DNA of 64,000 bases from the NCBI GenBank assembly GCA_944324805.1, contig CALUXS010000003.1, positions 124,001 to 188,000 on the forward strand, given 5' to 3'. Positions 17,781-61,602 of the stretch are shown piece by piece. The position numbers and the translations under genes were made by a program. Within the stretch, counting starts at the first letter, position 1; each line of letters begins with the position of its first letter. The DNA comes from an uncultured Acholeplasmatales bacterium. Its GTDB lineage: Bacteria > Bacillota_I > Bacilli_A > Acholeplasmatales > Anaeroplasmataceae. The notes under the pieces were generated by a model that was given only the letters and a program-made list of their open reading frames with translations, was not told where the DNA came from and did no database searches.

Positions 17781-19436
17781 TTACCAATATATTGAAATTT
17801 TTGTTCCTTTATCAAGAATACTTTCTAATTCTATTTTATAGCCAAAATGCTCACATATGTGTTTTACAATTGCTAGTCCTAAGCCAGTACCACCGGATTG
17901 TTTACTCTTCGCTTTATCAACACGATAAAATCTTTCGAAAACTCTTGTTTGGTCTTCCTTAGAAATACCGATTCCTGTATCTTCAACGCTAAAGCAATTG
18001 CTATTAAGAGTAATTTTTATTTTTCCATTATTGATATTATATTTAATAGCATTATCTAAAAGATTGCTAAATATCTCATCAATTTGCATAACACTTACTT
18101 CTTTTACTACATCTTCAACATTTAACTCAAGTTTTATCTTTTTCGAATTAAGCTTATTGTGATACCTTTCGATGACATCATCTAAGATTGTTTTAATATT
18201 AGTTGATACCATTTCAAAATCTTTTTGATATTCTAAATTAGATAATTCTAGCATATCAATAATAATTTGGTTCATTCGATTTGCTTCTTTTAACGTTTTT
18301 TCGGCAGCTTCAAATATCTCATTTTTATCTTCTATTATTCCTGCTGTTATCATTTGTTGATAACCTATAATCGTAGTTAAAGGACTTTTTAATTCATGAG
18401 ATGCATTAGCAAAGAAATCCTTTTTGATTTGATCCATTTTTTGTTTTGTTGTTATATCAATAAATGTTATTATACTTCTATTTTGATTCCAATCTGTTTT
18501 AGGAAAACTTATTGTGAAAAAATAACATCTACCATCAATCTCAATTGTTAAATCTGTTGTTTTTTTGTCCTTTAAAGCACTTTGTAGCCATTTTTGTAAT
18601 GATATATCTCTAATACAATAAAAGTAATTTTTTCTTAGCACTGTATCAAGCGAAACATTAAATAGTTTTAAAGCAGCTGGATTTATTAATTCAATATCTT
18701 CTCCACTTAAAAGAATTAAGCCTTGTTCCATACTATCTAAAATAGTTTGATTTTTTTCTTTTTCAGATTGTAAAAGATAAATATGATTTTCAATCTCTTT
18801 TCTTAAAACAGCAATAATTTTAGGTAAATCATCGACATCCTTTAATGTATAATTTTGCTTATCTTCTATCAAACTAGCTAAATCGGATACTGATTGATTT
18901 ACAGGTTTCATCATTTGCTTAGATGCTAAATATAGCATACCTACACCAGCTACTAAAATTACTAAAATACCTACAAAACCTATTTCAAAATATGTAGTAG
19001 CAATGTTATTAATTACACTTATTTCATATGCCAATCTAATATAATATCCTGAATCTAAGTCTGCAATATACATCATTTTATAACCTAGTGAGTCAGAATT
19101 TCTTGTATATATATCTCCTAGATTTTGTAATTCAGGTCTATTAATATGATTATCTAAATTAGAAACATCAAAACCATATTCCGAATCATAGATTACTGTT
19201 CCTTCTTTATCTATAAATGTAATACGCAAATTTGAATCAGCTGCACTAAGCATAAGAGCAGTTTCTTCAAAATTAGTACCATCAAAATCCTTACATGCAA
19301 TTATCAAATAACTTTTTATTTCTTCTTTTGATTTATCAGTATGATCCTTTAGCATTGTTAAAAAAGATGCCAAAAAAAGTACTAGTAAAGATAAAAACAA
19401 AACAAGAGAACTTAAGAATATTATTCTTTTTTTCAT
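17781..19436 (-). CDS. phoR: Phosphate-sensing histidine kinase PhoR
   Basis: A 551-residue sensor kinase: TM1 (about 8-28), extracytoplasmic sensor (30-145), TM2 (150-170), HAMP-like linker, PAS domain (about 225-330), HisKA with the phospho-His in FFANASHELKSPLTTI (about 345), and HATPase with N box NLLDNAIKYN, G1 VEDTGIGIS and G2 GGTGLGLAIVKHIC. Domain order matches PhoR of Bacillus. It overlaps the response regulator gene by 4 bases and ends the pst-pho operon, so phosphate limitation should induce its own sensor. The exact ligand is inferred from the operon. Confidence 0.93.
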   Translation of the reverse strand: MKKRIIFLSSLVLFLSLLVLFLASFLTMLKDHTDKSKEEIKSYLIIACKDFDGTNFEETALMLSAADSNLRITFIDKEGTVIYDSEYGFDVSNLDNHINRPELQNLGDIYTRNSDSLGYKMMYIADLDSGYYIRLAYEISVINNIATTYFEIGFVGILVILVAGVGMLYLASKQMMKPVNQSVSDLASLIEDKQNYTLKDVDDLPKIIAVLRKEIENHIYLLQSEKEKNQTILDSMEQGLILLSGEDIELINPAALKLFNVSLDTVLRKNYFYCIRDISLQKWLQSALKDKKTTDLTIEIDGRCYFFTISFPKTDWNQNRSIITFIDITTKQKMDQIKKDFFANASHELKSPLTTIIGYQQMITAGIIEDKNEIFEAAEKTLKEANRMNQIIIDMLELSNLEYQKDFEMVSTNIKTILDDVIERYHNKLNSKKIKLELNVEDVVKEVSVMQIDEIFSNLLDNAIKYNINNGKIKITLNSNCFSVEDTGIGISKEDQTRVFERFYRVDKAKSKQSGGTGLGLAIVKHICEHFGYKIELESILDKGTKISIYW

Positions 19437-20101
19437 CTTAACACCTTATACCCTATTCCGTAAATTGTTTTTATAATATTTTGCTCAGGATCAATTTTGT
19501 TTCTCAAAGATTTAATATGCATATCAAGCGCACGTGATTCAAGTATTTGATTTGTATTCCAAATTTTTTCAAATATTTCTTCTCTACTAACTACATTTCC
19601 ACTCTTTTGAGTTAAAAGAACTAATATATCGAATTCTTTATTTGTTAATTCAACAATTTTACCTGCTTTTTTACATTCACGTTTATTTAAATCGATAGTA
19701 ACATCTTGTATTTCTAAAACCATACTTTGTCTATATCTTCTAACTTTAACTCCAACCCTACTCATTAACTCTAATAAATCAAATGGTTTTTCTATATAAT
19801 CATCTGCTCCTAAATCTAAACCATCTACCTTATCCATTAGCATATGATTTGCAGAGATTATAATTATTTCAATATCATCATTTTTCCTATCAGCTCTAAT
19901 CTTTTTTAATATTTCACTTCCAGAATAATCAGGAAGCATCATATCTAACAAAATCATATTAGGTTTCTTTTCTTCAAACTTTTTGAAAAAGCTTGTTCCA
20001 TCATAAAATGTTTCAACAGTATATCCTTGTTTAGAAAGGGTTCTATTAATAATTTGAGCGATATCCTTATCATCCTCAATTGAATAAATTAGGTATTCCA
20101 C
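19433..20101 (-). CDS. phoP: Response regulator PhoP/PhoB, OmpR family
   Basis: A 222-residue regulator: receiver domain with acidic pair ED (residues 9-10), phospho-Asp in ILLDMMLPDYSGSE (about 53), and Lys in DDYIEKPFDLLEL, followed by an OmpR winged helix ending KTIYGIGYKV. The start is a GTG (20099-20101) with AAAGGA 8 bases upstream; no in-frame ATG fits. It sits between phoU and phoR. It probably binds the TTTACA direct repeats before pstS, and maybe those before ppx. Confidence 0.93.
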   Translation of the reverse strand: MEYLIYSIEDDKDIAQIINRTLSKQGYTVETFYDGTSFFKKFEEKKPNMILLDMMLPDYSGSEILKKIRADRKNDDIEIIIISANHMLMDKVDGLDLGADDYIEKPFDLLELMSRVGVKVRRYRQSMVLEIQDVTIDLNKRECKKAGKIVELTNKEFDILVLLTQKSGNVVSREEIFEKIWNTNQILESRALDMHIKSLRNKIDPEQNIIKTIYGIGYKVLR

Positions 20102-20121: not shown

Positions 20122-20757
20122 CTAGTAGATTTTTTTGTCCTTATGATAGCCACTTACGATGTAAACAACCCATTCTGCAATATTAACACAATGGTCAGCT
20201 ATTCTTTCTAAATATTTTACCACTAAAGTAGTATAAATTGCAAAAGGAAGATAATTTTCTCCTTCTTTTTGAGGATGTGCAAGCATTTCAACTATTTCTT
20301 CATACTTTTCATCTACGTAATCATCAGATTTTATTACCTGGTTTGCTAGTTCTACATCACTATTTACATAAGATAAAATTGATTTTTTCAACATTTCTAG
20401 TACAAAAGAAGTTAATTTATCTACTGCTTCCATATGTTCTGAAGGAAATTGATTTAACTTTGTTGCAAACTGCATAATATCTTCTGCATGATCACCAATT
20501 CTTTCGACATCAGCTACTAGTTTTAAAATTCCTGTTACTTGTTTTAAATCACTTGCATATGGTCTTTCTCTTAACAAAATAGTTAAACAAATTTCTTCGA
20601 TTAAACGTTCGTATTGATCAACTAAGTCATCATTTATAATTGAAGCTTCTTTTTTTCCTACATAAACTAATATTGCTTCACTTATATTTTCTACAACTGT
20701 ATCACTCATTTTCAAAAGCATTTCTTTTAAATTTTCGATTTCTTTTTCAAGTCTCAT
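20122..20757 (-). CDS. phoU: Phosphate-signalling regulator PhoU
   Basis: A 211-residue all-helical protein with two three-helix bundles, each carrying the PhoU metal-binding type motif: VADVERIGDHAEDI (about 81-94) and VVKYLERIADHCVNIAEW (about 178-195). PhoU links PstSCAB to the PhoR-PhoP system and restrains phosphate uptake. It lies 12 bases after pstB and before phoP, the standard order. Confidence 0.95.
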   Translation of the reverse strand: MRLEKEIENLKEMLLKMSDTVVENISEAILVYVGKKEASIINDDLVDQYERLIEEICLTILLRERPYASDLKQVTGILKLVADVERIGDHAEDIMQFATKLNQFPSEHMEAVDKLTSFVLEMLKKSILSYVNSDVELANQVIKSDDYVDEKYEEIVEMLAHPQKEGENYLPFAIYTTLVVKYLERIADHCVNIAEWVVYIVSGYHKDKKIY

Positions 20758-20769
20758 ACTTTATAACTC

Positions 20770-21516
20770 CTATCCAAATCTACCTGTAATATAATCTTCT
20801 GTCTTTTTCTTTTGTGGATTTTTGAATAATTCTTCTGTTTCGTTATATTCAATAACCTCACCTAATAAGAAAAAGGCTGTATAATCTGAAACACGGGTTG
20901 CTTGTTGCATATTATGTGTAACTATCACTATAGTATAGTCTTTCTTTAATTCACCTATTAATTCTTCAATTTTTAAAGTTGCAATCGGATCAAGAGCACT
21001 AGTTGGCTCATCCATTAAAATTACTTCTGGTTTCATAGCAATAGCTCTAGCAATGCATAAGCGTTGTTGTTGACCTCCAGATAACCCTAAAGCATTATCC
21101 TTTAATCTATCTTTTACCTCATCATATAAAGATGCTTTCTTTAAAGAATCTACTACTATTTCCATCAATTTTTCCTTGTTTTTAATTCCACTACAACGTG
21201 GTCCATATGCTACATTATCAAAAATAGACATTGGAAATGGATTTGGTTGTTGGAAAACCATACCTACTTTTGTTCTTAAATCAATTGGATTTAGTTCTAA
21301 AATATTATCATCTTTAAATAGAATTTCTCCTTCTACACGGCAATTTGGTATAAGATCATTCATTCTATTTAAACAACGTAATAAAGTTGATTTACCACAA
21401 CCTGATGGTCCGATAAAGGCTGTAACCTTATTATGATAAATATCTAAATTTACATCCTTTAATACATGCTTTTCTCCATAGAAAAGATTAACATTTTTTA
21501 TTGTAAAATCGTTCAT
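20770..21516 (-). CDS. pstB: Phosphate ABC transporter ATPase PstB
   Basis: A 248-residue ATPase of the phosphate importer: Walker [20 protein letters not shown], the PstB-typical [13 protein letters not shown], signature [16 protein letters not shown], Walker [15 protein letters not shown] and switch His in [13 protein letters not shown]. Its start codon overlaps the pstA stop (TAATG arrangement). Length is normal. Confidence 0.97.
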
Positions 21517-22757
21517 TATTGTCCTACCGCCATTTTATTCATTTTCTTTGATATTAATTTAACAGCTAAAGATAGTAGCAATACAACTATCAAAATAAAA
21601 ATTGCAATTGCTGAAGCTGTACCATAATTTGGATTTTCACCTTGCATAATTGACCAAATATGTAAAGATAGAGATGTAGATGCCTTTGTAACACTTATAT
21701 CATCTTGAATACTTGTACCCATTACAAAAATCAACGCAGCAGATTCTCCTATAATTCTACCTATTGAAAGTAATGTTGCAGTCAAAATACCTGGTAATGA
21801 ATTTGGTAAAATAACTTTGAATACTGTTTGGGTTTTAGAGGCGCCAAGCGCTAAAGAAGCCATTGTAAAATGAGCTGGAATAACCTTTAATGATTCTGAG
21901 GTGGTTTTTATAATTGTTGGTAGTAAAATAATAACCATTGTAAAAGCACCAGCTAGTATACTAAACCCGTTTGTTTTAAAGGTTCCATCACAAAATGGAA
22001 TAAAAATTAATGCGCCACAAAAACCAAAAATAATTGATGGTATACCACTTGTCATATCTATCATTGTTAATAAAGTAGATTTAATTTTACCAGGCTTTGC
22101 ATACTCTTCAAGGAATATAGCAGCGCCAACACCTATTGGTAAAGCGATTGCTAAAGTAATTAAAATTAAATAAAGAGTTGTAATTAGAGAACCTCTAGCT
22201 CCCCCACCAGAAGTTTTACATTGTATTTGGTTTATAATAACAGAGGAATTTAGTGTATCTGCAATTTTTTCTGCTCCCTTTTTTGCGCCAACAATGCTTG
22301 TTTTACCGTTTGCATCTTGGCATCTTATTGCATCAATTCTTACCCCAGTTTCTAATTTATATACTGATTGTCCATCTAATGATTTAGCAGATTGAAATGG
22401 AGAATTTGAAGCAACATATGTTACTACTACACAATCCGATCCATCTGTTGCCTTTGAATCTTTTATTGCAATGCCATAATTTGAAACAAAATATGAACCT
22501 TCAATATTTGGATCATCGAAATCATTTTCACTTGCTAAAACTGTAACTGTATTTAATTTTTCTGCGTTATCAGATGTCAATAATTTCAAATTAAAATTAG
22601 GGATACCTTGAACTAATACGTAAATTATTATACCAAAAAGTACTACAACTAAAAATAATGTTGACAAATACGTAGGAACTAATCTAGCAATATCTGCAAT
22701 CTTTCTACTTGTTGTAAGTGCTGTTGATTTTTCTTTCGGAGTTTTATTATTTTTCAT
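21516..22757 (-). CDS. pstA: Phosphate ABC transporter permease PstA with a long extracellular insertion
   Basis: Membrane subunit of the Pst importer. It is 413 residues, about 110-130 longer than usual. The extra part lies between TM1 (about 28-52) and TM2 (about 190-215): a polar, probably extracytoplasmic segment ([14 protein letters not shown] to [13 protein letters not shown]). The permease core is standard, with the EAA-type loop [21 protein letters not shown] and [11 protein letters not shown]. It overlaps pstC and pstB by one base each (TAATG). The insertion could touch the substrate-binding protein, which is itself unusual here. Confidence 0.93.
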
Positions 22758-23674
22758 TATATTTCCTCCATTTTCTTTTTAATAGCATTTAAGCCAATAT
22801 TAGTTATTAAAATTATCACAATCAAAACAATTCCAACACTAAAACGAATATCATAATCTAGTCCACTACTTTCATGTAAGCCTAACATCATTGTTGAAGT
22901 CAGTGTTCTTGTAATAGAAAATAATCCAAAGTTTGGACCAGTAATAGCATTACCGCAAACCATTGAAACCGCAGTTGCTTCTCCTAAAGCACGTCCAATA
23001 CCAAGAATCAAAGCTGCAAATATTCCCGATTTAGCACCACTAATTACGATTTTAAAATCTGTTTGTGTTTTTGAAGCTCCCAAAGCTAATGAGGCTTGGA
23101 TAGTTGTAGACTTAACAGCCTTCATACTAGTAACACTTAACATTGTGATAGTAGGTAACATCATGATTACTAGCACTAATATTGTAGATAAATTTGACAT
23201 ACCGCCTGCAGTTTGTAAACCAAATGCATTAGCTAGGCTCTTAACAATTGGATTAATAACACCCATTCCAAATAAACCAAAAATTATTGATGGAATAGCA
23301 GCAAGAATCTCTACAACATTGTTAACAAAAATACTTAACCAGCGTGGTGCAATTCTTACTATAAATAGCGATGTTAGAACTGAAACCGGTAAAGCTATTA
23401 GCGTTGCTATTAATGTTACATAAATTGTATTAATTAACGCTCCTAAAATACCATATGTTGATTCTGTCCAACTAGTTTTAGAAATAAAATCCCAAAAGTT
23501 TGCTTTTGTCATTCCAAAATCATTTACAGGGTAAGTTTTAACAAATGGTTGTATACCATTTTTTAGAATAAAAACTACAATGAAAATAATTGAAGATGAT
23601 GCTAAAATTGCGATTAATAGGAAAATAATCATGAATATTTTATCGATTATAGTTTTATTTTTACTATTTGTCAT
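22757..23674 (-). CDS. pstC: Phosphate ABC transporter permease PstC
   Basis: A 305-residue permease with six helices and the EAA loop [20 protein letters not shown] followed by LGIGRALGEATAVSMV. I chose the ATG at 23674 because AAGGAG lies 6 bases upstream; an in-frame GTG at 23698 would add eight residues but has no ribosome site and falls on the hairpin between pstS and pstC. It pairs with PstA. Confidence 0.95.
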   Translation of the reverse strand: MTNSKNKTIIDKIFMIIFLLIAILASSSIIFIVVFILKNGIQPFVKTYPVNDFGMTKANFWDFISKTSWTESTYGILGALINTIYVTLIATLIALPVSVLTSLFIVRIAPRWLSIFVNNVVEILAAIPSIIFGLFGMGVINPIVKSLANAFGLQTAGGMSNLSTILVLVIMMLPTITMLSVTSMKAVKSTTIQASLALGASKTQTDFKIVISGAKSGIFAALILGIGRALGEATAVSMVCGNAITGPNFGLFSITRTLTSTMMLGLHESSGLDYDIRFSVGIVLIVIILITNIGLNAIKKKMEEI

Positions 23675-23696
23675 TTTTTTCTCCTTATTCTTATAC

Positions 23697-23722
23697 ACAA
23701 AAATAGGCCACTATGGGCCTAT
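23697..23722 (-). terminator. Partial terminator between pstS and pstC
   Basis: ATAGGCC/GGCCTAT stem (7 bp, 6-base loop) followed on the minus strand by five T. A leaky terminator here would give more PstS than permease, as is usual in pst operons. Confidence 0.65.
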
Positions 23723-23745: not shown

Positions 23746-24738
23746 TTAAGCTTCAACAGCTTTTTTAACATCTTCCCAAGTTTTATATTCACCGCTGAAG
23801 ATATTCCATAAAATTTCTGAATCTGCATCTTCTAAAACATCATTTTCAGGACTTACAATTGCAACGATACCATCTTTACAAATTGTACCTTTTGTTTCTT
23901 CTGATGCATCTTCACCAGATTCAAAATCTCTAGATAAGAAACCAATGTCTAACTTGTTTGCTCCATCTTTTTCTGAACCTTGTGTACATTTATATGCATC
24001 ACCTGAACCTGTATGGTTATGTGAAGGAATAAAATTAACATCATCTTTAATAGCTTCCTTAAATGCAGCACTTAATGCCTTAGCAATTTTTTCAACTGAT
24101 GTCGAACCACCAAACTTAAGTGTGACATCTGTTGTAATAGCTAATGCTTCTTTAACTTTTTCATCATTAGCTTTAATATCATTCCATGTTTGTGCACTAT
24201 CTAAAACTGCTTGATCAACAATTCCGTCATTAGCTGCAACAATTGTTAATCCTTCTAGTGAGAACATATACTTAACAAAGGCATAAGTCATTTTTGCCTC
24301 ATTAGAACCATCATCAACTCTAGTAATATAATTAAAGTTACGTGATAATTTATAAGTTCCGTCAATTACAGAATCCTCTGTAGCTTCTACACCATTAAAT
24401 GTCAATCCCTTTACATCATCTGATTCTGCAACTGATGATAATGAAGCATAACCTATACCATATTCATCACCTGCAACTGCACTCATCATAGCACCGTTAT
24501 TAGCAACAGTAACTGCTCCATCTGCCAATAACTTATCATTAGATTTAGCTTCTGAATGACCAATTGCTGTAAAGAAGCCATCACGTGTTCCTGATTTTGT
24601 ATCTCTTGTGTAAACTGTTATATTTTTTGAAGTGTCAAATTTAGATTCATTTCCGCCATTTTCTGTAGAATTGTTACAACTTGCTAATGTAAATAATCCT
24701 ACAAATAAACTTACTAAACCAACAAATATTTTTTTCAT
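23746..24738 (-). CDS. pstS: Phosphate-binding lipoprotein PstS, apparently circularly permuted
   Basis: Lipoprotein substrate-binding subunit of the Pst importer: signal peptide 1-20, lipobox LASC with Cys21, 330 residues. Normal PstS reads GSTSV... - SRxxxxxE - DGIAvivnP - IFsGxxxxWxDV, and then R..SGTR..F - GIGY - LSR. Here the second half comes first: TRDTKSGTRDGFF (44-56), YGIGYASL (93-100), YKLSRNFNYI (129-138). The usual first half follows: FGGSTSVEKIA (209-219), GSGD (244-247), DIGFLSRDFESGE (264-276), CKDGIVAIVSPENDV (287-301), NIFSGEYKTWEDV (312-324). All phosphate-site motifs are kept, so function is probably retained. A strong GAGGAG site and Pho-box repeats lie upstream. Confidence 0.9.
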   Translation of the reverse strand: MKKIFVGLVSLFVGLFTLASCNNSTENGGNESKFDTSKNITVYTRDTKSGTRDGFFTAIGHSEAKSNDKLLADGAVTVANNGAMMSAVAGDEYGIGYASLSSVAESDDVKGLTFNGVEATEDSVIDGTYKLSRNFNYITRVDDGSNEAKMTYAFVKYMFSLEGLTIVAANDGIVDQAVLDSAQTWNDIKANDEKVKEALAITTDVTLKFGGSTSVEKIAKALSAAFKEAIKDDVNFIPSHNHTGSGDAYKCTQGSEKDGANKLDIGFLSRDFESGEDASEETKGTICKDGIVAIVSPENDVLEDADSEILWNIFSGEYKTWEDVKKAVEA

Positions 24739-24794: not shown

Positions 24795-24840
24795 TGTCAA
24801 AAAATCGTAAATCTGTAAAGAATTGTAAAGAGATTGTAAA
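24795..24840 (-). promoter_or_regulatory. Pho box: five TTTACA-like direct repeats
   Basis: On the minus strand TTTACA, TTTACA, TTTACA, TTTACG and TTGACA occur at plus positions 24835, 24824, 24814, 24806 and 24795, with spacings of 11, 10, 8 and 11 bases. PhoP-type regulators bind such TT(A/T/C)ACA repeats at about 11-base period. The array ends 14 bases before the -10 box of pstS. Confidence 0.8.
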
Positions 24841-24842
24841 GA

Positions 24843-24866
24843 AAAAAGGGTCAAACGACCCTTTTC
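24843..24866 (-). terminator. Terminator of the giant surface-protein gene
   Basis: AAAAGGGTC - loop - GACCCTTTT stem (9 bp, 4-base loop) plus T-run, a few bases after the stop at 24874. Confidence 0.9.
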
Positions 24867-24873
24867 CTATCAT

Positions 24874-27800
24874 TTATACTGCACTATAATTACCAGTATC
24901 ATAATAAACATTTACATTTGAGTTTACAAATAAACTGTTTGTACCTGTCATTGTAATTTGAACATAATCATTCCAGCGCTTCTTCACTGAGTAATCAGTG
25001 TAATAAGTTCTATTGTTTGCTCCTATACCAATTAAAGAGAATTCTCCTTCCTCTACTATAAGAGTTTCTTCCACCTTAGCCTCAGCATATCCAGCTAGAC
25101 CCCATACACGTCTTGTTAAACCATTCAAATATACATAGTACGCATTTTTATAAACAACCTCTAATGAGAAATCACTATTAATAATAACTTCATCACCATC
25201 TTTGTATTTATTATTAGAAAAACCATCTTTAACAACTAATTTTTCTTCCACTAAATATACATCTTTGTTAGTATTATAAGTTTTTATATCTGATTCAGTT
25301 AAAGTTGGAACTACAAATTTATATCCACTTTCTACCCATGTATCAATTGCATTGCCTTGTTTATCATCATAGTGAATTTTATACATATCCTCGAAAATAG
25401 GATAAATTGCAAAATCACCTTTAACTAGATAATCTTTAATAAGTTCACCATCTTTACTTAATGACCAACCAAGAAGTTTATGCTCCCTATTATTAAAATA
25501 AGTTGGTATAGTCGGTAAAACATTTAGATTTAAGTTAGTACCTAAAGCTATTTCAATTGTAGAATGAATATTACCCTCACCATCATATATAGTTAAATTA
25601 GCTGGAGTTATTTCTTTATACCATAAATATAAAACTAAATTTTCTCCTGGCATATTTACAAGATTAAACTCATTACTATATGCTGAATCAAAATATAATC
25701 CACTATATTCATATGTTTTTGAATCAATTTCTAAAACTCGATCAAATTCAGGTAAAATTATTGGCATACCTTCATAAAATGAATAAGTTGTATCTCCTAA
25801 CATTTCATTTTTAATTGTAATTTCATATGTAGGAACCTCTTCCCACCTTGCGTAAAGCATTCCACCATTACGAGGCATTTTATTATTTGTAAATAAAGTT
25901 CCTTCTTCAAAAGTACTTGATGTGTACCAGCCTAAGAAATAATAGTATTTACCATCTATTAAAGTATATTTATCATATGTAGGTAAGTTAATTTCTGAAG
26001 AAGGTAGAGCTGTAATATCATTAACAAGAGGCCCTCCATTTTCTTCAAAATATAAAGTAACATTATTTGTAGCTATATGCCAAGAACCATCATATTCCCA
26101 GAAAATATCCTCTTGATAAGAATAATTATTTACATACTCTATAAGGTTATTCAAATCAACACTTTGCTTAATATCTACTAATTCTAAACTATCGGTAGAT
26201 AACTTCATACTTACAGCATCTGCTAAAGGCATGTTCATACTAAACGAAGCTTTGTATAAATAATCCTCTTCATCGATAACTTTTGTGTATAATTCCAAGT
26301 CAAAATTACCTAATTGGCTGTTATTAGTAAGCTCTGCAAGATTAATACTTAATACATATTTACTATTTACATCATCATAATGATAATCTTTAAGGACATT
26401 AGTAAAATCAATAGGTGGACGTTCTCCTGTATTCATACTACTATTGATTGCATCCATAATAGAATCACTAAAGCCAAAACCGAACTTTAATAAATAATAC
26501 AAAGGATCCTCTAAAAGAGTGGTATCACTAATCATTAATTTCTTTTCATATTGTCTTCCTGTTGATGAAGCAAAAACAGGGATAGTTTCAGTTCTATGGA
26601 AATAAACCATATGATCCTTATAATATATATTTAAAATACGATTCATACCTGGAGAACCATTACTTACAGTATCACCAAATTTATAAGGGACATCATTATT
26701 AACTCCAGTTATAACAGGAATTGCTCCAATTCTTGCATAAATTTCAGGATAAACGCTTCCTTCAATCATCTTTATCTTGATATCAATAGGAACACTCATA
26801 TTGATGTTTATACCAATTATATTAGCATTAACATTTATTGTTGATGTTATATGGAAATCCTTTAATTTAGCATCATTAAAAATAGATTTAATTAATGGAT
26901 TTAAACTTGATAAATCATAGAAATTATCTAAATTGCTAGGTATTTCTATAGTAAAATCTTCATCATTAATTTCAAGTGCAAAATTCAAGTTATAACCTAA
27001 AGCATATAAGTTATTTACTTCTAGTCCTGAAATACTATTGCCATTCATCGCTAAAGAAATTATTAAGTCATCTGTACTACCTAATAACTCTTTTGCCAAT
27101 ACTATAGCTAAATTATCCTTAGATATACTAATGTCTTTAATAATCTTTGCGAAATCAATTTTATTTATCAAATCAAAAATATTAAATCCTTCAACTTTAT
27201 CTATTGTGTCTTCAATTTGACTAAAGTCAAAATTTAAGAATTCAGAAATAGTATTTAATAGTCCCATTAAGTCAGAAGTATTTGCCATCAATGATAATGA
27301 ATTTGGACTATCTAAATTATTTTTATATGTGATGTAGAATCTTCCATCCTTTAAAATTATTTTAAAGAAATGAGAATTATAGTTTACTTGTGATGTTGTT
27401 AATGATAGTAAAGCCTCAAAACCTAAATTATCTTTTTCAGATAAATTTAATTTTAAAGAACCACTTAATACATATGATACATTATCAACATTCATATTGC
27501 CATTTAATACTAAACTTAATTTGTCCTCTTTACAAACATCAATAAAACTTCTAACATAATCTAACAATAAACTTAGTGAATTATAATCTATGTATTTAAC
27601 TTCAGGAATAGTAATATCAAAATTTGGCATTTCTGTTATTGTAAGCGATGTATCGCTAATGCTAACAGCGTTATTTATAATATTTCCTATACTAATATTT
27701 AGATTTTTATCGATTATTAGGCTTAGATTACCTAATAATATGCTAGTTTTATCAGCACTAGATTTAACGTTAATTTTAGAAATAATTTCTAATATACCTA

Positions 27801-30800
27801 AATTATCTATTTTTGGAAGAGACAAGTCCATATTAAATGTTTGCTCTATTTTATTTATCAAAGACCCTAATTCATTTAATCTAAGCTTTATACCAATATT
27901 ACCATATTGAACATAAATCGTCTCATCATATAAATAAGCATTAACTTTATGAATAACTCCTTCATTAGTTATAAAATCAACATTTAATTCCATAGCTAAA
28001 GTATTTCTAAAATCTAACTTTAATAATCCTTCAACCTTGAAGTTTGTACTATTTAAATTTAGGTTAGTTGAAAAGTTGATTGCAATCATTTTTGAATCTA
28101 TTACATTAAATAATTTATTAATAGTATCAAAAATAGTTTTAATACCAATTGAATCTATATAATCAGATACTTCAATTTCTAATGGTTCATTAGCAGTAGA
28201 TTCCATAGATAATTTTAAATTTCTTAATGATATACTTTCGGAAATAATATCACTAATAGAGATACATACCATCTCATTTTCATACTTAATGCCTAAATCA
28301 ATATTTAATCCATTAATATTCAATGATAATGTTGTAATTCCATCAACATACTTAATACCACTAATCATATCTGCAAGATTAATATTATTTAAATCAAAAT
28401 TAAATAAAGGCAAAATCTCTGCTATGTCGGTTAAAGATGTTTTTATCTTAATATTTCCAACAATTACGTTTAAATTACTATCTAGCAATGAAATCTTAGT
28501 GATTAAATTAGTTGTTCCGTCAGTTATATAACCATCAAAAGAAAAGCCATTTTTGAAATCAACAAGAATTTTACCACATAAATTATAATTTGCACCTAGT
28601 ATTTCAATAGTAGTATTTACATCTATAGATAAATTACTTCCTTTTAATATTTCTAGTATAAATGGTATAAATGGCTTTAAATTAGCTATATCATAATATT
28701 CGCCATTTACATTACCTATATTTTCTTTTGTTCCTTCTATATTTCCTTCAATACTTATATTTCCTGCTAAAATATTTAATTTAATCTCATTTTCATAATC
28801 TATTTTTATTCCTAAGCTTTCTTTTCCTTCTAATAAAACATTAAAGCTTAATTCCTTTTCTTTTATTTCTAGATTATTTATTAAATTATTTAAATCTACT
28901 TTAGCTACTAGATCTTCTATTATCTTTCTTATTGATAAATCATATACATTTAATATCTCATCTGCTATTTCTATTAAGGTTTTTAAATCACCTTTTACCT
29001 TTAAATTTCCATAGCTTATATACAAGGTATTTCCTATCTTATTAAAACTTATTTCATTATTATATAGATTTATACTTCCGCTAATATTTAGATTCTTATC
29101 AACAATCAAATTCAAATTAATATTTTCATTAATTTTCATATTGATATTAACGTTATTAGCCATTAATTCTTCTATTTTTCCTACTAAATTCATTAAATTA
29201 TCAATATTTTCTTTGGTTATATTATTTTCCTTTGGTTGATATTCCTCATATTCCTTACTTGTTCTTATGTCTAAACTTGTATCTGTTAACTTTATAGATC
29301 CTAATTCTATTTCTTCTAATACAATATTAATACCATTGTCATTTGGAGATATTGCTAAGCCTATTTCTTTTCCTAACAGATTTAACTTTAATATCATTTT
29401 GCCATTTTCATTTTCAATAGAATTAATGATATTGCTGATATCTATTTTTGAACTATTTTCACCAAGTAATGAAGCTATTTCTTCATTTGAAAGTTTTATA
29501 CTTAAATTATTTCCTAATTCTAAATAGAAATATCCATCCTTTGATGCGAGAATAATATCTAAGGTTTTTCCTAAAATATTAGCTTTTAATTTACCATTTA
29601 CTCCGAATTCTTTTAAGTTAATCTTAATATTTCCGCTAACTTGGCAATTAACTCCTAATACCTCAATAGTAGTATTTACATCTATAGATAAATTACTTCC
29701 TTTTAATATTTCTAGTATAAATGGTATAAATGGCTTTAAATTAGCTATATCATAATATTCGCCATTTACATTACCTATATTTTCTTTTGTTCCTTCTATA
29801 TTTCCTTCAATACTTATATTTCCTGCTAAAATATTTAATTTAATCTCATTTTCATAATCTATTTTTATTCCTAAGCTTTCTTTTCCTTCTAATAAAACAT
29901 TAAAGCTTAATTCCTTTTCTTTTATTTCTAGATTATTTATTAAATTATTTAAATCTACTTTAGCTACTAGATCTTCTATTATCTTTCTTATTGATAAATC
30001 ATATACATTTAATATCTCATCTGCTATTTCTATTAAGGTTTTTAAATCACCTTTTACCTTTAAATTTCCATAGCTTATATACAAGGTATTTCCTATCTTA
30101 TTAAAACTTATTTCATTATTATATAGATTTATACTTCCGCTAATATTTAGATTCTTATCAACAATCAAATTCAAATTAATATTTTCATTAATTTTCATAT
30201 TGATATTAACGTTATTAGCCATTAATTCTTCTATTTTTCCTACTAAATTCATTAAATTATCAATATTTTCTTTGGTTATATTATTTTCCTTTGGTTGATA
30301 TTCCTCATATTCCTTACTTGTTCTTATGTCTAAACTTGTATCTGTTAACTTTATAGATCCTAATTCTATTTCTTCTAATACAATATTAATACCATTGTCA
30401 TTTGGAGATATTGCTAAGCCTATTTCTTTTCCTAACAGATTTAACTTTAATATCATTTTGCCATTTTCATTTTCAATAGAATTAATGATATTGCTGATAT
30501 CTATTTTTGAACTATTTTCACCAAGTAATGAAGCTATTTCTTCATTTGAAAGTTTTATACTTAAATTATTTCCTAATTCTAAATAGAAATATCCATCCTT
30601 TGATGCGAGAATAATATCTAAGGTTTTTCCTAAAATATTAGCTTCTAATTTACCATTTACTCCGAATTCTTTTAAGTTAATCTTAATATTTCCGCTAACA
30701 GGAATATTTATGAAACCATAAGAAATTTTTGTGTTTAAGGTCATGTCTATTACACCATTATTATAAATTTCTTTTATAATTGGTAAATATTCTTTTAGCG

Positions 30801-32784
30801 TACGAATATCAAAATAAGGGCCATCAGGTAATGTTATTTCTTCAATGCTTGTTTGTCTATTTATTTGCAGTTTTAAATTAAGTGTACTACAATCAATGGC
30901 AAAACCATCATTTGTATCATATATCTTAATTTTTAAACTATCTAGATTTTCATTAAATACATTTAAGTTAACATCTAAATCTAATTTACCATCATCAATT
31001 TCTAAACTATTAATTACTTGTTGCCATGGCAAATTAATTAATAATCTTAAAATTTGATTTAAGTCAAAATTCATATTAAAATCATCAATTGGCATTGATA
31101 ACTTTAATTTACCTATTTCTATAACAACAAGATTTTCCTTATAAGTAGCAACTAATGCGATATCATTACCTTTATAGTTAATTGTAGCATTAACTAACAT
31201 TGCTACTTCATTAGCAAAGTGAATCTCTCCTGCTCCATTAATAAGTAAATCTTCTTTAGAAAATTCAAAATTAAAACTAAATTTACCGCTTTCGATTATA
31301 TTCTTTAAATCTTCAAATAAGAATCTTAAGTCATTTATATTTTCATATTCGTTAGGATCTAATTCATATTCAAATTTATTGTTACTATTACTTAAAGAGA
31401 TAGATAGATTTAGATCTTTAATATTTAAATTTGCCTCAATTCCTTTTAATGAGATATCTGTTTTTGATTCCTCATTAAAATGGAATATAACAGGTACTAC
31501 TTCTCCTAGAAGTGGAATATTTACATTTAGTTTTACATCATTACCATTTTTTTCAATTGTAGCCTCTTGCAAGGCATTCATTATACCATCTAAATCAATT
31601 AAGTTTGCTAAATCATTGCTACTTTTTTTAGAATCAATTAGTCCAAATAATTCATCGATATTCATTCTTAACTTTAAACCAGCTATAGATAAATATACGT
31701 CCTTATTTTCAACAATAAGACTTAAATTATCACTTATAAATGCGTATTTATTATTTAATATATCAAGGGCTAATCTACCATTTATTGTCTTATCTTGAAT
31801 TGATAGTTCTACATCAAAGTAGCCAACTTCACCACTTAAATAATCGCCAAAACCATACATCAAATAGTCCATTGGTCCTAATTCTGGAGTTGGAATATCT
31901 TCCCCATCAGATGGCTTTAAATCTTTATACTGTTCAAAATAATCCTTTTGCTCAATATTTAAATCTGAATATGTAAATTTTTCAGTTAAAGTTCCTGTAC
32001 ATGTAATACTTCCAATAACAGGCATAGTTATGTCATATATTTCTACTGTATCAATTTGCTTTAATACCCATTCATCATCAAATGTAACTTTCATATTAAC
32101 ACTTGAAAAACTTGGAAATTCACTAGCACCACCATATGCCTTAACTTCATATTGATAATTTGCCGGAGCTTTTGAAGGATCTAAACTAATTTCAAGGTAA
32201 TAATTGCCAAATTCATCTGTTTTTAAGTCACTAATAGAAACTATTGTTTCTTTGCATAAAATATATGATGAAATTTGATTTGGTAACCAACCATATACTC
32301 CTAAATATTGCTTATTTGAATAAACAGTAGGTAATCCGTCTTTCCAAGTAGTATTTTCACCAGCAATTTTATTTGGTTCTCTAGTAAGTACTTTATTTTG
32401 ATCTAGGAAAAAATATTTTTGCTGACCAACACTTTTTAATGAACTTTCACTTATTGCTTGCTGAAAAGCTCTATTATCTATAACGGTTCTTACATTATAT
32501 ACATTTTGTGTATATTTCATAAATGCCACATTAGCATTAACTTCACCATTAGTTATACCAGTAAAATTATTTTTTTCCATCAAACCAGCAACAATAGCTA
32601 AGTTATCATATGAATCAAAATCAGTAGGATCTCCTGATTCTGGTTTATCCATAGTTGTAGTTGTATATCCTAAGGCACTAATAGGTCCTTTATTTCCTGT
32701 TCTTTTATTTACAACTGAAGTGACACCAACAGCTGAAAATATCATTGATAAAATTAAAACTAGAAAGATTAGTTTTCTTTTCAT
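24874..32784 (-). CDS. Giant secreted repeat protein with C-terminal InlB-type repeats
   Basis: A 2636-residue exported protein of unknown function. Residues 1-21 form a signal peptide (MKRKLIFLVLILSMIFSAVG). Residues about 30-300 are a unique domain. Residues about 300-2200 are many degenerate units of about 175 residues, each with a pattern like GxLxLDL...xxIYLSYGNLKxKxxLxEL, rich in Asn/Ile/Leu and probably beta-sheet. Residues about 2235-2560 hold roughly four InlB/Listeria-Bacteroides-type repeats (FLGWYTSS...MLYARW). No LPxTG, C-terminal helix or lipobox is visible, so anchoring is unclear. A 353-residue double unit is duplicated almost exactly (696-1041 and 1049-1394). AGAGGG ribosome site; own promoter and terminator. 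Adhesin or envelope-structure role is a guess. Confidence 0.85.
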   Translation of the reverse strand: MKRKLIFLVLILSMIFSAVGVTSVVNKRTGNKGPISALGYTTTTMDKPESGDPTDFDSYDNLAIVAGLMEKNNFTGITNGEVNANVAFMKYTQNVYNVRTVIDNRAFQQAISESSLKSVGQQKYFFLDQNKVLTREPNKIAGENTTWKDGLPTVYSNKQYLGVYGWLPNQISSYILCKETIVSISDLKTDEFGNYYLEISLDPSKAPANYQYEVKAYGGASEFPSFSSVNMKVTFDDEWVLKQIDTVEIYDITMPVIGSITCTGTLTEKFTYSDLNIEQKDYFEQYKDLKPSDGEDIPTPELGPMDYLMYGFGDYLSGEVGYFDVELSIQDKTINGRLALDILNNKYAFISDNLSLIVENKDVYLSIAGLKLRMNIDELFGLIDSKKSSNDLANLIDLDGIMNALQEATIEKNGNDVKLNVNIPLLGEVVPVIFHFNEESKTDISLKGIEANLNIKDLNLSISLSNSNNKFEYELDPNEYENINDLRFLFEDLKNIIESGKFSFNFEFSKEDLLINGAGEIHFANEVAMLVNATINYKGNDIALVATYKENLVVIEIGKLKLSMPIDDFNMNFDLNQILRLLINLPWQQVINSLEIDDGKLDLDVNLNVFNENLDSLKIKIYDTNDGFAIDCSTLNLKLQINRQTSIEEITLPDGPYFDIRTLKEYLPIIKEIYNNGVIDMTLNTKISYGFINIPVSGNIKINLKEFGVNGKLEANILGKTLDIILASKDGYFYLELGNNLSIKLSNEEIASLLGENSSKIDISNIINSIENENGKMILKLNLLGKEIGLAISPNDNGINIVLEEIELGSIKLTDTSLDIRTSKEYEEYQPKENNITKENIDNLMNLVGKIEELMANNVNINMKINENINLNLIVDKNLNISGSINLYNNEISFNKIGNTLYISYGNLKVKGDLKTLIEIADEILNVYDLSIRKIIEDLVAKVDLNNLINNLEIKEKELSFNVLLEGKESLGIKIDYENEIKLNILAGNISIEGNIEGTKENIGNVNGEYYDIANLKPFIPFILEILKGSNLSIDVNTTIEVLGVNCQVSGNIKINLKEFGVNGKLKANILGKTLDIILASKDGYFYLELGNNLSIKLSNEEIASLLGENSSKIDISNIINSIENENGKMILKLNLLGKEIGLAISPNDNGINIVLEEIELGSIKLTDTSLDIRTSKEYEEYQPKENNITKENIDNLMNLVGKIEELMANNVNINMKINENINLNLIVDKNLNISGSINLYNNEISFNKIGNTLYISYGNLKVKGDLKTLIEIADEILNVYDLSIRKIIEDLVAKVDLNNLINNLEIKEKELSFNVLLEGKESLGIKIDYENEIKLNILAGNISIEGNIEGTKENIGNVNGEYYDIANLKPFIPFILEILKGSNLSIDVNTTIEILGANYNLCGKILVDFKNGFSFDGYITDGTTNLITKISLLDSNLNVIVGNIKIKTSLTDIAEILPLFNFDLNNINLADMISGIKYVDGITTLSLNINGLNIDLGIKYENEMVCISISDIISESISLRNLKLSMESTANEPLEIEVSDYIDSIGIKTIFDTINKLFNVIDSKMIAINFSTNLNLNSTNFKVEGLLKLDFRNTLAMELNVDFITNEGVIHKVNAYLYDETIYVQYGNIGIKLRLNELGSLINKIEQTFNMDLSLPKIDNLGILEIISKINVKSSADKTSILLGNLSLIIDKNLNISIGNIINNAVSISDTSLTITEMPNFDITIPEVKYIDYNSLSLLLDYVRSFIDVCKEDKLSLVLNGNMNVDNVSYVLSGSLKLNLSEKDNLGFEALLSLTTSQVNYNSHFFKIILKDGRFYITYKNNLDSPNSLSLMANTSDLMGLLNTISEFLNFDFSQIEDTIDKVEGFNIFDLINKIDFAKIIKDISISKDNLAIVLAKELLGSTDDLIISLAMNGNSISGLEVNNLYALGYNLNFALEINDEDFTIEIPSNLDNFYDLSSLNPLIKSIFNDAKLKDFHITSTINVNANIIGININMSVPIDIKIKMIEGSVYPEIYARIGAIPVITGVNNDVPYKFGDTVSNGSPGMNRILNIYYKDHMVYFHRTETIPVFASSTGRQYEKKLMISDTTLLEDPLYYLLKFGFGFSDSIMDAINSSMNTGERPPIDFTNVLKDYHYDDVNSKYVLSINLAELTNNSQLGNFDLELYTKVIDEEDYLYKASFSMNMPLADAVSMKLSTDSLELVDIKQSVDLNNLIEYVNNYSYQEDIFWEYDGSWHIATNNVTLYFEENGGPLVNDITALPSSEINLPTYDKYTLIDGKYYYFLGWYTSSTFEEGTLFTNNKMPRNGGMLYARWEEVPTYEITIKNEMLGDTTYSFYEGMPIILPEFDRVLEIDSKTYEYSGLYFDSAYSNEFNLVNMPGENLVLYLWYKEITPANLTIYDGEGNIHSTIEIALGTNLNLNVLPTIPTYFNNREHKLLGWSLSKDGELIKDYLVKGDFAIYPIFEDMYKIHYDDKQGNAIDTWVESGYKFVVPTLTESDIKTYNTNKDVYLVEEKLVVKDGFSNNKYKDGDEVIINSDFSLEVVYKNAYYVYLNGLTRRVWGLAGYAEAKVEETLIVEEGEFSLIGIGANNRTYYTDYSVKKRWNDYVQITMTGTNSLFVNSNVNVYYDTGNYSAV
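28604..29640 (-). repeat. Long direct repeat, copy 1
   Basis: About 1037 bases nearly identical to 29663-30699 at a fixed offset of 1059 bases, inside the giant gene and in frame (353 codons). I saw one difference, T at 29586 versus C at 30645 (Lys versus Glu). Not every base was compared. Confidence 0.92.
29663..30699 (-). repeat. Long direct repeat, copy 2
   Basis: Second copy of the 1037-base repeat; the 22 bases between the copies (29641-29662) differ from the flanks. The near identity implies a recent duplication or ongoing gene conversion. Confidence 0.92.
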
Positions 32785-58220: not shown

Positions 58221-58253
58221 AAAAAAATAAACCCGGAGTGGGTTTATTTTTTT
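58221..58253 (-). terminator. Terminator of ppx-ppk
   Basis: Long AT stem capped by AACCC/GGGTT with loop GGAGT, followed by T-rich sequence on the minus strand; it overlaps the ppk stop. Confidence 0.88.
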
Positions 58254-60619
58254 AGTTTATCAACAAGTTCTTCTAAGTTGTCAATAGTATAACAATTTAT
58301 ACCTAATGTCTTTAATCTTTTTAAATAAGAATCCTCTACTTTATTCTTTAGTACAATTATCATTTCTATGTTCTTAGATGAGAAAATACTATTTAGTAGA
58401 TAATATTTTTCGTAAAACCTTCTCATTCCTTCTTCTGAATAGCCAATGTTAACAACTAAAACATATTTATTAGCTATAATATAATCTACTATCAACTTTG
58501 TACCTAGTGATTCTAATATTATTGATTGATTTTTCTTGCATTCTATTTTATTTATAGCTATTAGTTTATTAAGGGCCATTTTTACAAAAATAACATTCTT
58601 CTTATTTTTTTCAATTTCCGGTTTATGTAGGAAATATTCATGTGAATTAACAACTAAAGTTTCATTATTTAGACTAACATAATCACCTGTTGAAGTTAAT
58701 TTTCTACCATTAATATTATCATGAAGCATAATATTGATATGTTCTTTTATCTCTTCTTTTATATCATTTTCTAATATAGGTACTGCTATTTCTACTCTTC
58801 TAATTGTATTTCTTGTCATCATATCGGCTGATGATATATATATTTTTGCTGAATTACCTTTTCCAAACATATAGATACGAGAATGCTCTAAAAAGCGCCC
58901 TACAATACTCATTATTGATATATTTTCTGTATATCTAGGTATTTCTGGTAAAATCGTACAAATTCCTCTTATAATTAATTCAATCTTAACTCCAGCTTTA
59001 GAGGCTTCACTTAGTTTATTAATAATATTTATATCAGTTATTGAATTTAATTTAAAGAAAATATAACCATTACTACCCTTTTTTATTTCTTCATCAATTA
59101 AACTAATGATTTGAGGTCTTAAAGCATGAGGAGCAACTAATAATTCATTATATTCTCCATATAAATTACCTAATAACATATTTTGAAAAAAATTATGGGC
59201 ATCAACTCCAATTTTAGGATTGGCAGTCATTAGTGAATAATCGGTATATAAATTTACAGTTTTTTCGTTATAATTACCTGTACCTATTTGTGTTATATAG
59301 CTTACTTTATTATCTATTTTTAAGGTTATAAAGCAAATTTTTGAATGAACTTTAAATTCATCAAACCCATACATTACATGACAACCAGACTCTTCTAGCT
59401 TCTCACTATAATTAATATTGCTATTTTCATCAAATCTAGCTCTTAATTCTATTAAAGCTGTTACTTCTTTACCATTTTCTGCCGCCTGACATAAATAATC
59501 AACTAACCTAGAATGTTGACTTAATCTATATATAGTTATTTGGATGGCAGTAACATTTTTATCATTGGCAGCTTCCTTTATAAGACGTAAAAATGGTTCC
59601 ATCCTCTCAAAAGGATAGAATAATAATACATCTTTTTTCCTTATTTGGTTTATTATTCCTTTATTTATATCAATATAACTATTATCTTTTTGCTCTAATT
59701 TAGGATATAAAAAATCCTTGTATTCAGCTTTATTGATTATATTATAGATAAAATTTAATGAAAACGGAGATTTTGATACAAAAAATTCATTATTTTCAAT
59801 TTTTAATTTTTCTTTTAAAAATAATTCTGTTTGATATTGCAACGTTTTATGACACTCTACTCTAACAGGATTTAATCTATTTCTTTTCTTTATGAGTTGC
59901 CTCATAACCTTTCTAAAATCATCTTGTAATTCTAACTCACCATCTTCAACGTTTAAATCTGCATTTCTAGTCACTCTTATAATGTTTTTATTTTTAATCT
60001 TATATCCTTTAAATACTATATCACTAAGATCATAAATTAATTTCTCTGAAAAAATATAATTTCCATCAAATTCTAAATAACTAGGAATACTATCAGGTAC
60101 TGCTACTATCCCATATGTATCGATTTTTTCATTAGATTCTAGAATAGTAATTATGTAACTTCTTTTATTCTCTAAATGTGGAAAAGGATGGTTTATATCT
60201 ATTATTTGTGCTGATAAATATGGTAATATTTCCTGTTTGAAGAATTTTCTTATTTTCTTCTCATCTTTATAATTTTTTAATTGTAAGAAACTTATACCAT
60301 TTTTAGAAATTTCTTCTACCAGGCTTTTATAAATATTATCCTTTTTATTATATATTTTTCTTACTGCATCGTATATTTTAATTAGTTGTTCTTTAGGTGT
60401 CATACCAGTCTTACTATCAATAACACCACTTTTAATAGAATCTAAGTCTTTCAATGAACCAACTCTTATCATAAAGAATTCATCTAAATTAGAATTAAAT
60501 ATTTCGAAAAATTTTATTCTTTCTAATAATGGAATATCGCTATTATTTGCTTCCTCAAGTACTCGTTCATTGAACTTTAACCACGATAATTCACGATTTT
60601 GTGTAAATTCATAAGCCAT
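58244..60619 (-). CDS. ppk: Polyphosphate kinase PPK1 with a C-terminal extension
   Basis: PPK1 makes polyphosphate reversibly from ATP. Residues 1-690 cover the N, head, C1 and C2 domains: RELSWLKFNERVLEEA, FFMIRVGSL, the phospho-His region GFDEFKVHSKICFI (His about 425), GTGNYNEKT and the second catalytic His in FLEHSRIYMFGKG. At 791 residues it is about 90-100 longer than usual; the extra tail (about 695-791) has alpha/beta character (YVLVVNIGYSEEGMRRFYEKY, IEMIIVLKN) and is not recognised. It lies 8 bases after ppx. Confidence 0.95.
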   Translation of the reverse strand: MAYEFTQNRELSWLKFNERVLEEANNSDIPLLERIKFFEIFNSNLDEFFMIRVGSLKDLDSIKSGVIDSKTGMTPKEQLIKIYDAVRKIYNKKDNIYKSLVEEISKNGISFLQLKNYKDEKKIRKFFKQEILPYLSAQIIDINHPFPHLENKRSYIITILESNEKIDTYGIVAVPDSIPSYLEFDGNYIFSEKLIYDLSDIVFKGYKIKNKNIIRVTRNADLNVEDGELELQDDFRKVMRQLIKKRNRLNPVRVECHKTLQYQTELFLKEKLKIENNEFFVSKSPFSLNFIYNIINKAEYKDFLYPKLEQKDNSYIDINKGIINQIRKKDVLLFYPFERMEPFLRLIKEAANDKNVTAIQITIYRLSQHSRLVDYLCQAAENGKEVTALIELRARFDENSNINYSEKLEESGCHVMYGFDEFKVHSKICFITLKIDNKVSYITQIGTGNYNEKTVNLYTDYSLMTANPKIGVDAHNFFQNMLLGNLYGEYNELLVAPHALRPQIISLIDEEIKKGSNGYIFFKLNSITDINIINKLSEASKAGVKIELIIRGICTILPEIPRYTENISIMSIVGRFLEHSRIYMFGKGNSAKIYISSADMMTRNTIRRVEIAVPILENDIKEEIKEHINIMLHDNINGRKLTSTGDYVSLNNETLVVNSHEYFLHKPEIEKNKKNVIFVKMALNKLIAINKIECKKNQSIILESLGTKLIVDYIIANKYVLVVNIGYSEEGMRRFYEKYYLLNSIFSSKNIEMIIVLKNKVEDSYLKRLKTLGINCYTIDNLEELVDKLKK

Positions 60620-60627
60620 ATTTTCAC

Positions 60628-61512
60628 CTACTTAGTATTTGCTAATAAATAACCTTCCCTAACACCATAATTGCTTATATAAACTTGCTTTGAATCATAA
60701 TATTTCATTATTGTTCTTAGCACCATAAGGCCGCATGTAAAAGTAAAAATTCTTTCTGGAATGACCTTTAAAATAGCTATTTGCCATTCTTTTGGTTCTT
60801 CCTTGCATTTACTTATCATCAAATCAATATCATCATAAGATAAGTATGTATTATCAAGATTAGGATATAAAGATTTCTTTAATTTTAAGGCTGCTCTAAT
60901 TGTTCCTCCTACACCGCATATATTTTCCCACTTTTCATTCTGATTAATTTCTTCTAAATATTTTTTTACAACATTTTTGATTTTATGCAATTCCTTTGTG
61001 GTAGGAATAATATCATCTACGTATTTTGAGTATAAATTTAAACTTCCAACAGGAAGTGATGTTTTATAAATAATTTCTTTATTTTTAAAAAAAACAAGCT
61101 CCGAACTTCCACCACCAATATCTATCATTAGACCATCTGATAGATGATATTTTAATTTTGATCCAATAAAATCATATTCAGCTTCTTCTGTGCCAGATAA
61201 TATTTTCACTTCATATCCAACTTCATCTTTAATTCTTTTTACTACTTCACTAGTATTATTAACATTTCTTAATGATGCTGTAGCAAAAATAAACATCTTT
61301 TCAATAATAACATTTTCTAAACTCTGCTTATATTCGAATAATACCGCAATACATTTTTCAATGCCTAGTTCCGTTAAATTGCCAAACTTATCAACATAAT
61401 TTGCTAAACAAGCAAAATTCTTTTTATCAAAAACAGTATATAAATTATTATTTTTAATTTCATATGTTTTTAATCTTATCGTATTTGAACCTATATCAAT
61501 TACACCATACAT
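60628..61512 (-). CDS. ppx: Exopolyphosphatase, Ppx/GppA family
   Basis: A 294-residue Ppx/GppA-domain phosphatase removing terminal phosphates from polyphosphate or pppGpp: phosphate-1 motif VIDIGSNTIRLKTYEI (4-19), LSGTEEAEYDFIGS, phosphate-2 motif LMIDIGGGSSELVFF. Only the two-lobe core is present, without the HD-like C-terminal domain of longer forms. AGGGGTG ribosome site. First gene of the pair with ppk; TTTACA repeats upstream suggest PhoP control. Confidence 0.93.
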   Translation of the reverse strand: MYGVIDIGSNTIRLKTYEIKNNNLYTVFDKKNFACLANYVDKFGNLTELGIEKCIAVLFEYKQSLENVIIEKMFIFATASLRNVNNTSEVVKRIKDEVGYEVKILSGTEEAEYDFIGSKLKYHLSDGLMIDIGGGSSELVFFKNKEIIYKTSLPVGSLNLYSKYVDDIIPTTKELHKIKNVVKKYLEEINQNEKWENICGVGGTIRAALKLKKSLYPNLDNTYLSYDDIDLMISKCKEEPKEWQIAILKVIPERIFTFTCGLMVLRTIMKYYDSKQVYISNYGVREGYLLANTK

Positions 61513-61547: not shown

Positions 61548-61602
61548 ATTATAATATAGGTCTTTTAAAATAAAAAGAAATCAATTGTAAATTGTTTGTA
61601 AA
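61548..61602 (-). promoter_or_regulatory. ppx-ppk promoter with Pho-box-like repeats
   Basis: Minus strand TATAAT at 61548-61553 without a good -35, and two TTTACA repeats exactly 11 bases apart (61586-61591 and 61597-61602), the same hexamer and spacing as at the pst promoter. The distance to the -10 box (32 bases) is larger than at pstS (14). Confidence 0.55.

Follow-up and report, generated by a model that had tools for sequence, protein, structure and literature searches.

A circularly permuted PstS at the head of an Acholeplasmatales pst operon, with tandem, re-cut and apparently reverted forms among its relatives

The first gene of an intact pstSCAB-phoU operon in an uncultured Acholeplasmatales bacterium encodes one complete PstS whose halves stand in swapped order. 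We consider it very likely (a probability of roughly 0.92) that this gene, found in a window of 64,000 nucleotides (the whole stretch of DNA that was analysed), is a single permuted PstS, most likely working normally, which was made by a process of gene duplication and trimming that has continued in its relatives.

One PstS domain with exchanged halves

The pstS open reading frame (23746..24738, minus strand, as are the genes, their parts and the Pho boxes given below) encodes a phosphate-binding lipoprotein of 330 residues, in which the PF12849 and TIGR02136 domains are found swapped. We call the half with the SGTR motif A and the half with the GSTS motif B, so that standard PstS is BA and the window PstS is AB. 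Behind a lipoprotein signal peptide that ends at the lipobox cysteine Cys21 (LASC; 24676..24738), half A (residues 37-172; 24223..24630) corresponds to the C-terminal half of standard PstS, positions 130-265 of PF12849, and contains R45, S49-G50-T51 (SGTR), GIGYASL, LSRNF and the last helix. A 32-residue linker, predicted to be helical (residues 173-204; 24127..24222), then bridges the former C and N termini and leads into half B (residues 205-325; 23764..24126), the N-terminal half of standard PstS (PF12849 positions 10-125), with GSTSV, TGSGD, SRDF, DGIVAIVSPEND and IFSGEYKTWEDV.

When the 267-position PF12849 profile was split, as the initial annotation had proposed, and its halves were scanned separately, positions 130-265 fell on residues 37-160 and positions 10-125 on about residues 205-323, each half being found once and in reversed order; a profile scan of the whole genome found both pieces again, within a single frame. 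Nearly the whole of PF12849 is covered (positions 10-126 and 130-265) and the domain content is complete for both families, in an order other than the standard B-then-A. TIGR02136 likewise matches in two stretches, its C-terminal half first, and because the halves are swapped its score of 102.8 bits lies under the NCBIfam cut-off of 206.6. Sequence alignment to the standard PstS structures 4Q8R and 4GD5 gives two swapped pieces, and alignment to 1TWY gives a significant swapped A piece and a B piece that is not significant. The initial annotation had read the motif order as the reverse of normal PstS, with the cut between the IFSG..W.DV and R..SGTR elements and the old ends joined near residues 178-205; the profiles and the standard structures agree with it on both order and cut, and half A ends near residue 172 and half B begins near residue 205, which bears out the estimated joint.

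The AlphaFold2 model, built from an alignment of 42 relatives, is confident (mean pLDDT 92.4), with high-confidence linker helices at residues 176-181, 185-191 and 193-199, and its chain does not run in the standard order. Each PF12849 half occurs once, which makes the protein a single permuted domain rather than a pair of partial copies; neither of the outcomes named initially as refuting the swap was thus seen. That the frame might hold two partial copies in tandem, or result from a fusion or from faulty assembly, is a reading to which we give a negligible probability: the model is one compact fold, and a crystal structure (4H1X, below) and many independently assembled genomes have the same order. 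The collinear match to that structure, together with the genome survey, refutes it.

Known structures and the distribution of the AB order

An order-dependent Foldseek search of the PDB with the window model placed 4H1X at the top (E 7e-23, TM 0.85 by target length), followed by OpuAC and other distant binding proteins; standard PstS was absent among the best 50 matches listed. The next-best collinear fold match, betaine-binding OpuAC of Bacillus subtilis (3CHG, 2B4L), reaches a TM of 0.5 or less. 4H1X is PstS2 (SP_2084) of Streptococcus pneumoniae, released in October 2012, and has the same A-linker-B order as the window PstS from end to end, in both sequence and fold: by sequence it aligns collinearly over residues 32-325 (E 5.6e-21), with identities of about 41% in A and 32% in B, and against 4Q8R, 4GD5 and 1TWY it too shows the swap. 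Its linker is shorter, at 16 residues against about 30, and a constraint that puts 4H1X into a single clade with the main AB group gave a borderline AU p of 0.0495; the AB order of 4H1X may thus come from a separate permutation event. Standard PstS proteins (4GD5, 4Q8R, 1TWY, 4EXL) share domain family, motifs and operon role with the window PstS but carry B before A, and the window halves align to 4GD5, 4Q8R and 1TWY only as swapped pieces.

The permuted topology is therefore not new, having been in the PDB since 2012 as 4H1X. The initial annotation had known of no described permuted PstS, and this holds as far as text is concerned, our literature search (with most subscription papers outside its reach) having found no description of one; it does not hold for the structure, which has long been public, or for the order, which is common in the class. 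The novelty that 4H1X takes away is regained, on other grounds, through the relatives with tandem, re-cut and reverted forms described below. A natural circularly permuted substrate-binding lipoprotein is known in TpMglB-2 (Tp0684) of Treponema pallidum, whose topology occurs in Gram-positive bacteria too (PMC4990184). It is, however, a type I glucose-binding protein with an unrelated cut site, and no tandem or reverted forms of it, unlike the PstS relatives here, are reported in the available portion of that source (PMC4990184).

We surveyed 296 genomes of the window's class, as had been suggested initially, and found the AB order to be common: 114 genomes have a match, and in 89 of the 296, by count of rows, it is a single collinear full-length match, which is the AB order, with split matches, the standard order, in roughly 20. 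The named relatives belong to Acholeplasmatales, Anaeroplasmataceae, Izemoplasmatales and related Bacilli and Mycoplasmatota MAGs. Both orders are present in one genome of the survey, G202 (loci L064 and L065), and, to judge from the structures 4EXL and 4H1X, the pneumococcus seems to have both likewise. Three loci (L035, L062, L069) each hold a pair of adjacent but separate PstS genes, both AB or both BA, from which in-frame fusions could arise.

Operon, Pho control and probable function

The swapped protein retains its lipobox and its ligand motifs, as initially noted: Cys21, R45, S49, G50, S212, S214, S245 and S269 are invariant in the alignment of 42 permuted PstS proteins. The motifs R..SGT, GSTS, GS and SR are mostly common to standard-order proteins too, and from general knowledge of E. 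coli PstS we take the positions R45, S49-G50, S212/S214, S245 and S269 to be those that contact phosphate.

The gene is followed by pstC (22757..23698; TIGR02138, 219.6 bits, cut-off 196.45), pstA (21516..22757; TIGR00974, 205.5 bits, cut-off 193.45), pstB (20770..21516; TIGR00972, 417.7 bits, cut-off 343.2) and phoU (20122..20757; TIGR02135, 166.9 bits, cut-off 130.25), and then by open reading frames for a PhoB/PhoP-like response regulator (19433..20101) and a PhoR-like histidine kinase (17781..19436, with an HELKSPLTTI H-box and GTGLGLAI), both assigned by reading rather than by profile. Upstream of pstS lies a Pho box (24806..24840), read from the sequence as TTTACA at 24840-24835, 24829-24824 and 24819-24814 and TTTACG at 24811-24806. 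An exact motif search found perfect TTTACA-N5-TTTACA at only two places in the 64 kb, before pstS and before ppx-ppk (61586..61602), so that the box before pstS is real, and a second one before ppx-ppk is what a Pho regulon would predict. The genes behind the second box read as an exopolyphosphatase (ppx, 60628-61512) and a polyphosphate kinase (ppk, 58244-60619), suggesting that polyphosphate metabolism may belong to the Pho regulon of this bacterium. A terminator-like hairpin of the upstream gene (24843-24866) stands directly before the pstS Pho box, and the same layout is seen before ppx. Further upstream, 24874-32784 (minus strand) encodes a secreted-looking protein of 2636 residues with long, nearly identical internal repeats; its C-terminal region presumably resembles listerial B repeats.

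The initial annotation's view of an intact pst operon under a Pho box is thus upheld, and its suggestion that the permuted protein is probably functional gains from the invariant motifs, the confident model, the operon and the Pho box. The window PstS, encoded with pstCAB under Pho control and the sole protein above the PF12849 cut-off in its genome, probably serves ordinary high-affinity phosphate capture. It would be a lipid-anchored, two-lobed clamp, in which R45 and SGT from one lobe would hold phosphate and the other lobe would contribute the GSTS, GSG and SR motifs, and it would pass phosphate to PstCA under Pho control. We regard it as highly improbable that it binds another ligand, or is only a sensor or surface lipoprotein. 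Phosphate affinity is only predicted and the TIGR02136 score is below cut-off (102.8 against 206.6), but the low score comes from the swapped order, and a two-unit relative (G144, below) passes the cut-off, with its inner B1-A2 stretch as the best match; the invariant binding motifs, the operon, the Pho box and its place as the genome's only PstS all speak for phosphate.

Tandem, re-cut and reverted relatives and the origin of the swap

Two-unit ABAB proteins, each in one open frame, occur in six genomes (G144, G033, G110, G158, G261, G389), three of them (G158, G261, G389) in the window's genus, and a three-unit ABABAB protein, also in one open frame, occurs in G280; each has a single signal peptide. 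G360 has one more tandem, which a frameshift disrupts: in its ABAB gene (L080, 2920-4729, on a 1.6 Mb contig) the frame breaks inside the first A unit, through sequencing error or decay. This broken frame and the degraded reading of G350 were excluded from the trees. A 670-residue frame in G314 was rejected as a tandem, being an unrelated protein read through in frame upstream of a single AB unit. An assembly artefact is unlikely in G144, whose genome stands in one contig of 1.88 Mb and whose tandem copies differ in DNA sequence by 17%.

Between tandem units DNA identity is 81-98%, and in the tree the units of one tandem protein group together, joined in the case of G280 by a closely related single-unit protein; the tree forces the tandem label to change five times or more. 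Because the copies in a tandem are most closely related to one another, the duplications could be fewer or older than they look, masked by concerted evolution. At the B1-A2 joint there are usually 8-12 residues (15-20 in G280), against 5 in standard PstS, so that each tandem holds a complete standard-order B1A2 module. Indeed the whole G144 protein scores 251.6 bits with TIGR02136, above the cut-off of 206.6, its best NCBIfam match being the inner B1-A2 stretch (residues 177-444). The copies are too alike for a pairing of A1B1 with A2B2 to be told from B1A2 nested between A1 and B2. These two- and three-unit lipoproteins raise the question of whether several binding modules on one anchor help phosphate scavenging.

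In one genome, G199 (L034), the pstS before pstC-pstA has a third cut point, inside A: signal, last A helices, linker, B and then the first three quarters of A. Its model (pLDDT 91.9) is placed by Foldseek with standard PstS (1TWY, 4GD5, 4Q8R) and not with 4H1X. Its sister in the tree is the AB protein from Acholeplasma granularum (support 100/96), and because of its linker we take it to derive from an AB form.

Three genomes of the window's own family (G370, G387, G388) carry the BA order, in proteins with a C-terminal tail (L077, L078, L079), at the head of intact pst operons with 56-85% identity to that of the window. Half for half, these proteins show 51-59% identity with the window PstS, where canonical BA proteins reach 26-40%. 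Independently of any tree, the tail shows homology with the A-B linker, as when GILTTKISDAKSWEEIKNSNKDFKELCSK is compared with GILETSIGSATKWSDILKKAENTDVKEICNK of the AB protein L103; a profile of AB linkers (23-33 residues long in the main AB clade) scores these tails at 24-26 bits, canonical tails at 0.9 or less and 600 shuffles at 9.0 or less. We infer that PstS in these three genomes has returned to the standard BA order, with the former A-B linker as C-terminal tail. If the tailed BA proteins instead kept the ancestral order and gave rise to the clade's AB forms, the standard order would be accounted for, and the larger quick tree is compatible with this, rejecting their exclusion from the AB clade weakly (AU p 0.106). 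The careful tree, however, nests L077-L079 inside the AB clade by three strongly supported branches (97/92, 97/91 and 100/99) and rejects their exclusion (AU p 0.003); in the next AB group outward, linkers are short and lack the W..IK element, and no tailed BA is known there; and L077 and L078 keep, at the B-A joint, the FDTSK typical of AB mature N-termini. We therefore hold an ancestral tailed BA to be very unlikely, and a return to BA the better account. A search beside the reverted and re-cut genes turned up no leftover A or B fragments.

Permutation by duplication starts from an in-frame doubling of a gene and ends with the trimming of both its ends, and duplicated intermediates trimmed to a new order have been described for DNA methyltransferases and for saposin/swaposin (PMC3320104). 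The series of AB, ABAB, re-cut and BA forms most likely reflects such a process. A PstS gene would have duplicated in frame and both its ends would then have been trimmed to give the AB order; in relatives the same process would continue, giving two- and three-unit tandems, the cut inside A and BA again. Thus it is likely that in Acholeplasmatales and their neighbours the order of PstS has been re-permuted repeatedly, from AB through ABAB or ABABAB to a cut inside A, and back to a tailed BA. The first swap is older than the tandem, re-cut and reverted forms, and no ABAB protein exactly ancestral to the reverted or re-cut forms was found among the relatives. For that first, ancient swap there is no known intermediate, which would suit fission and fusion of two half-genes in place of duplication and trimming; but separate half-genes are not seen in intact loci, and tandems, the intermediates that duplication predicts (PMC3320104), were found several times, so we think fission and fusion unlikely and prefer duplication.

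Permuted PstS proteins may be mislabelled, as they fall below the NCBIfam cut-off, and structure searches bound to chain order overlook their kinship to ordinary PstS. As a rule, only the two end states of a circular permutation are known. Within one bacterial order, and in contrast to the DNA methyltransferases and saposin/swaposin, PstS here occurs as tandems, with a third cut and with its original order restored; one orthologous operon gene thus offers end states, intermediate-like tandems, an alternative cut and a reversion, so that each step can be made and assayed. If true, a reversion whose proposed intermediates are found in extant relatives would allow a stepwise test of permutation by duplication.
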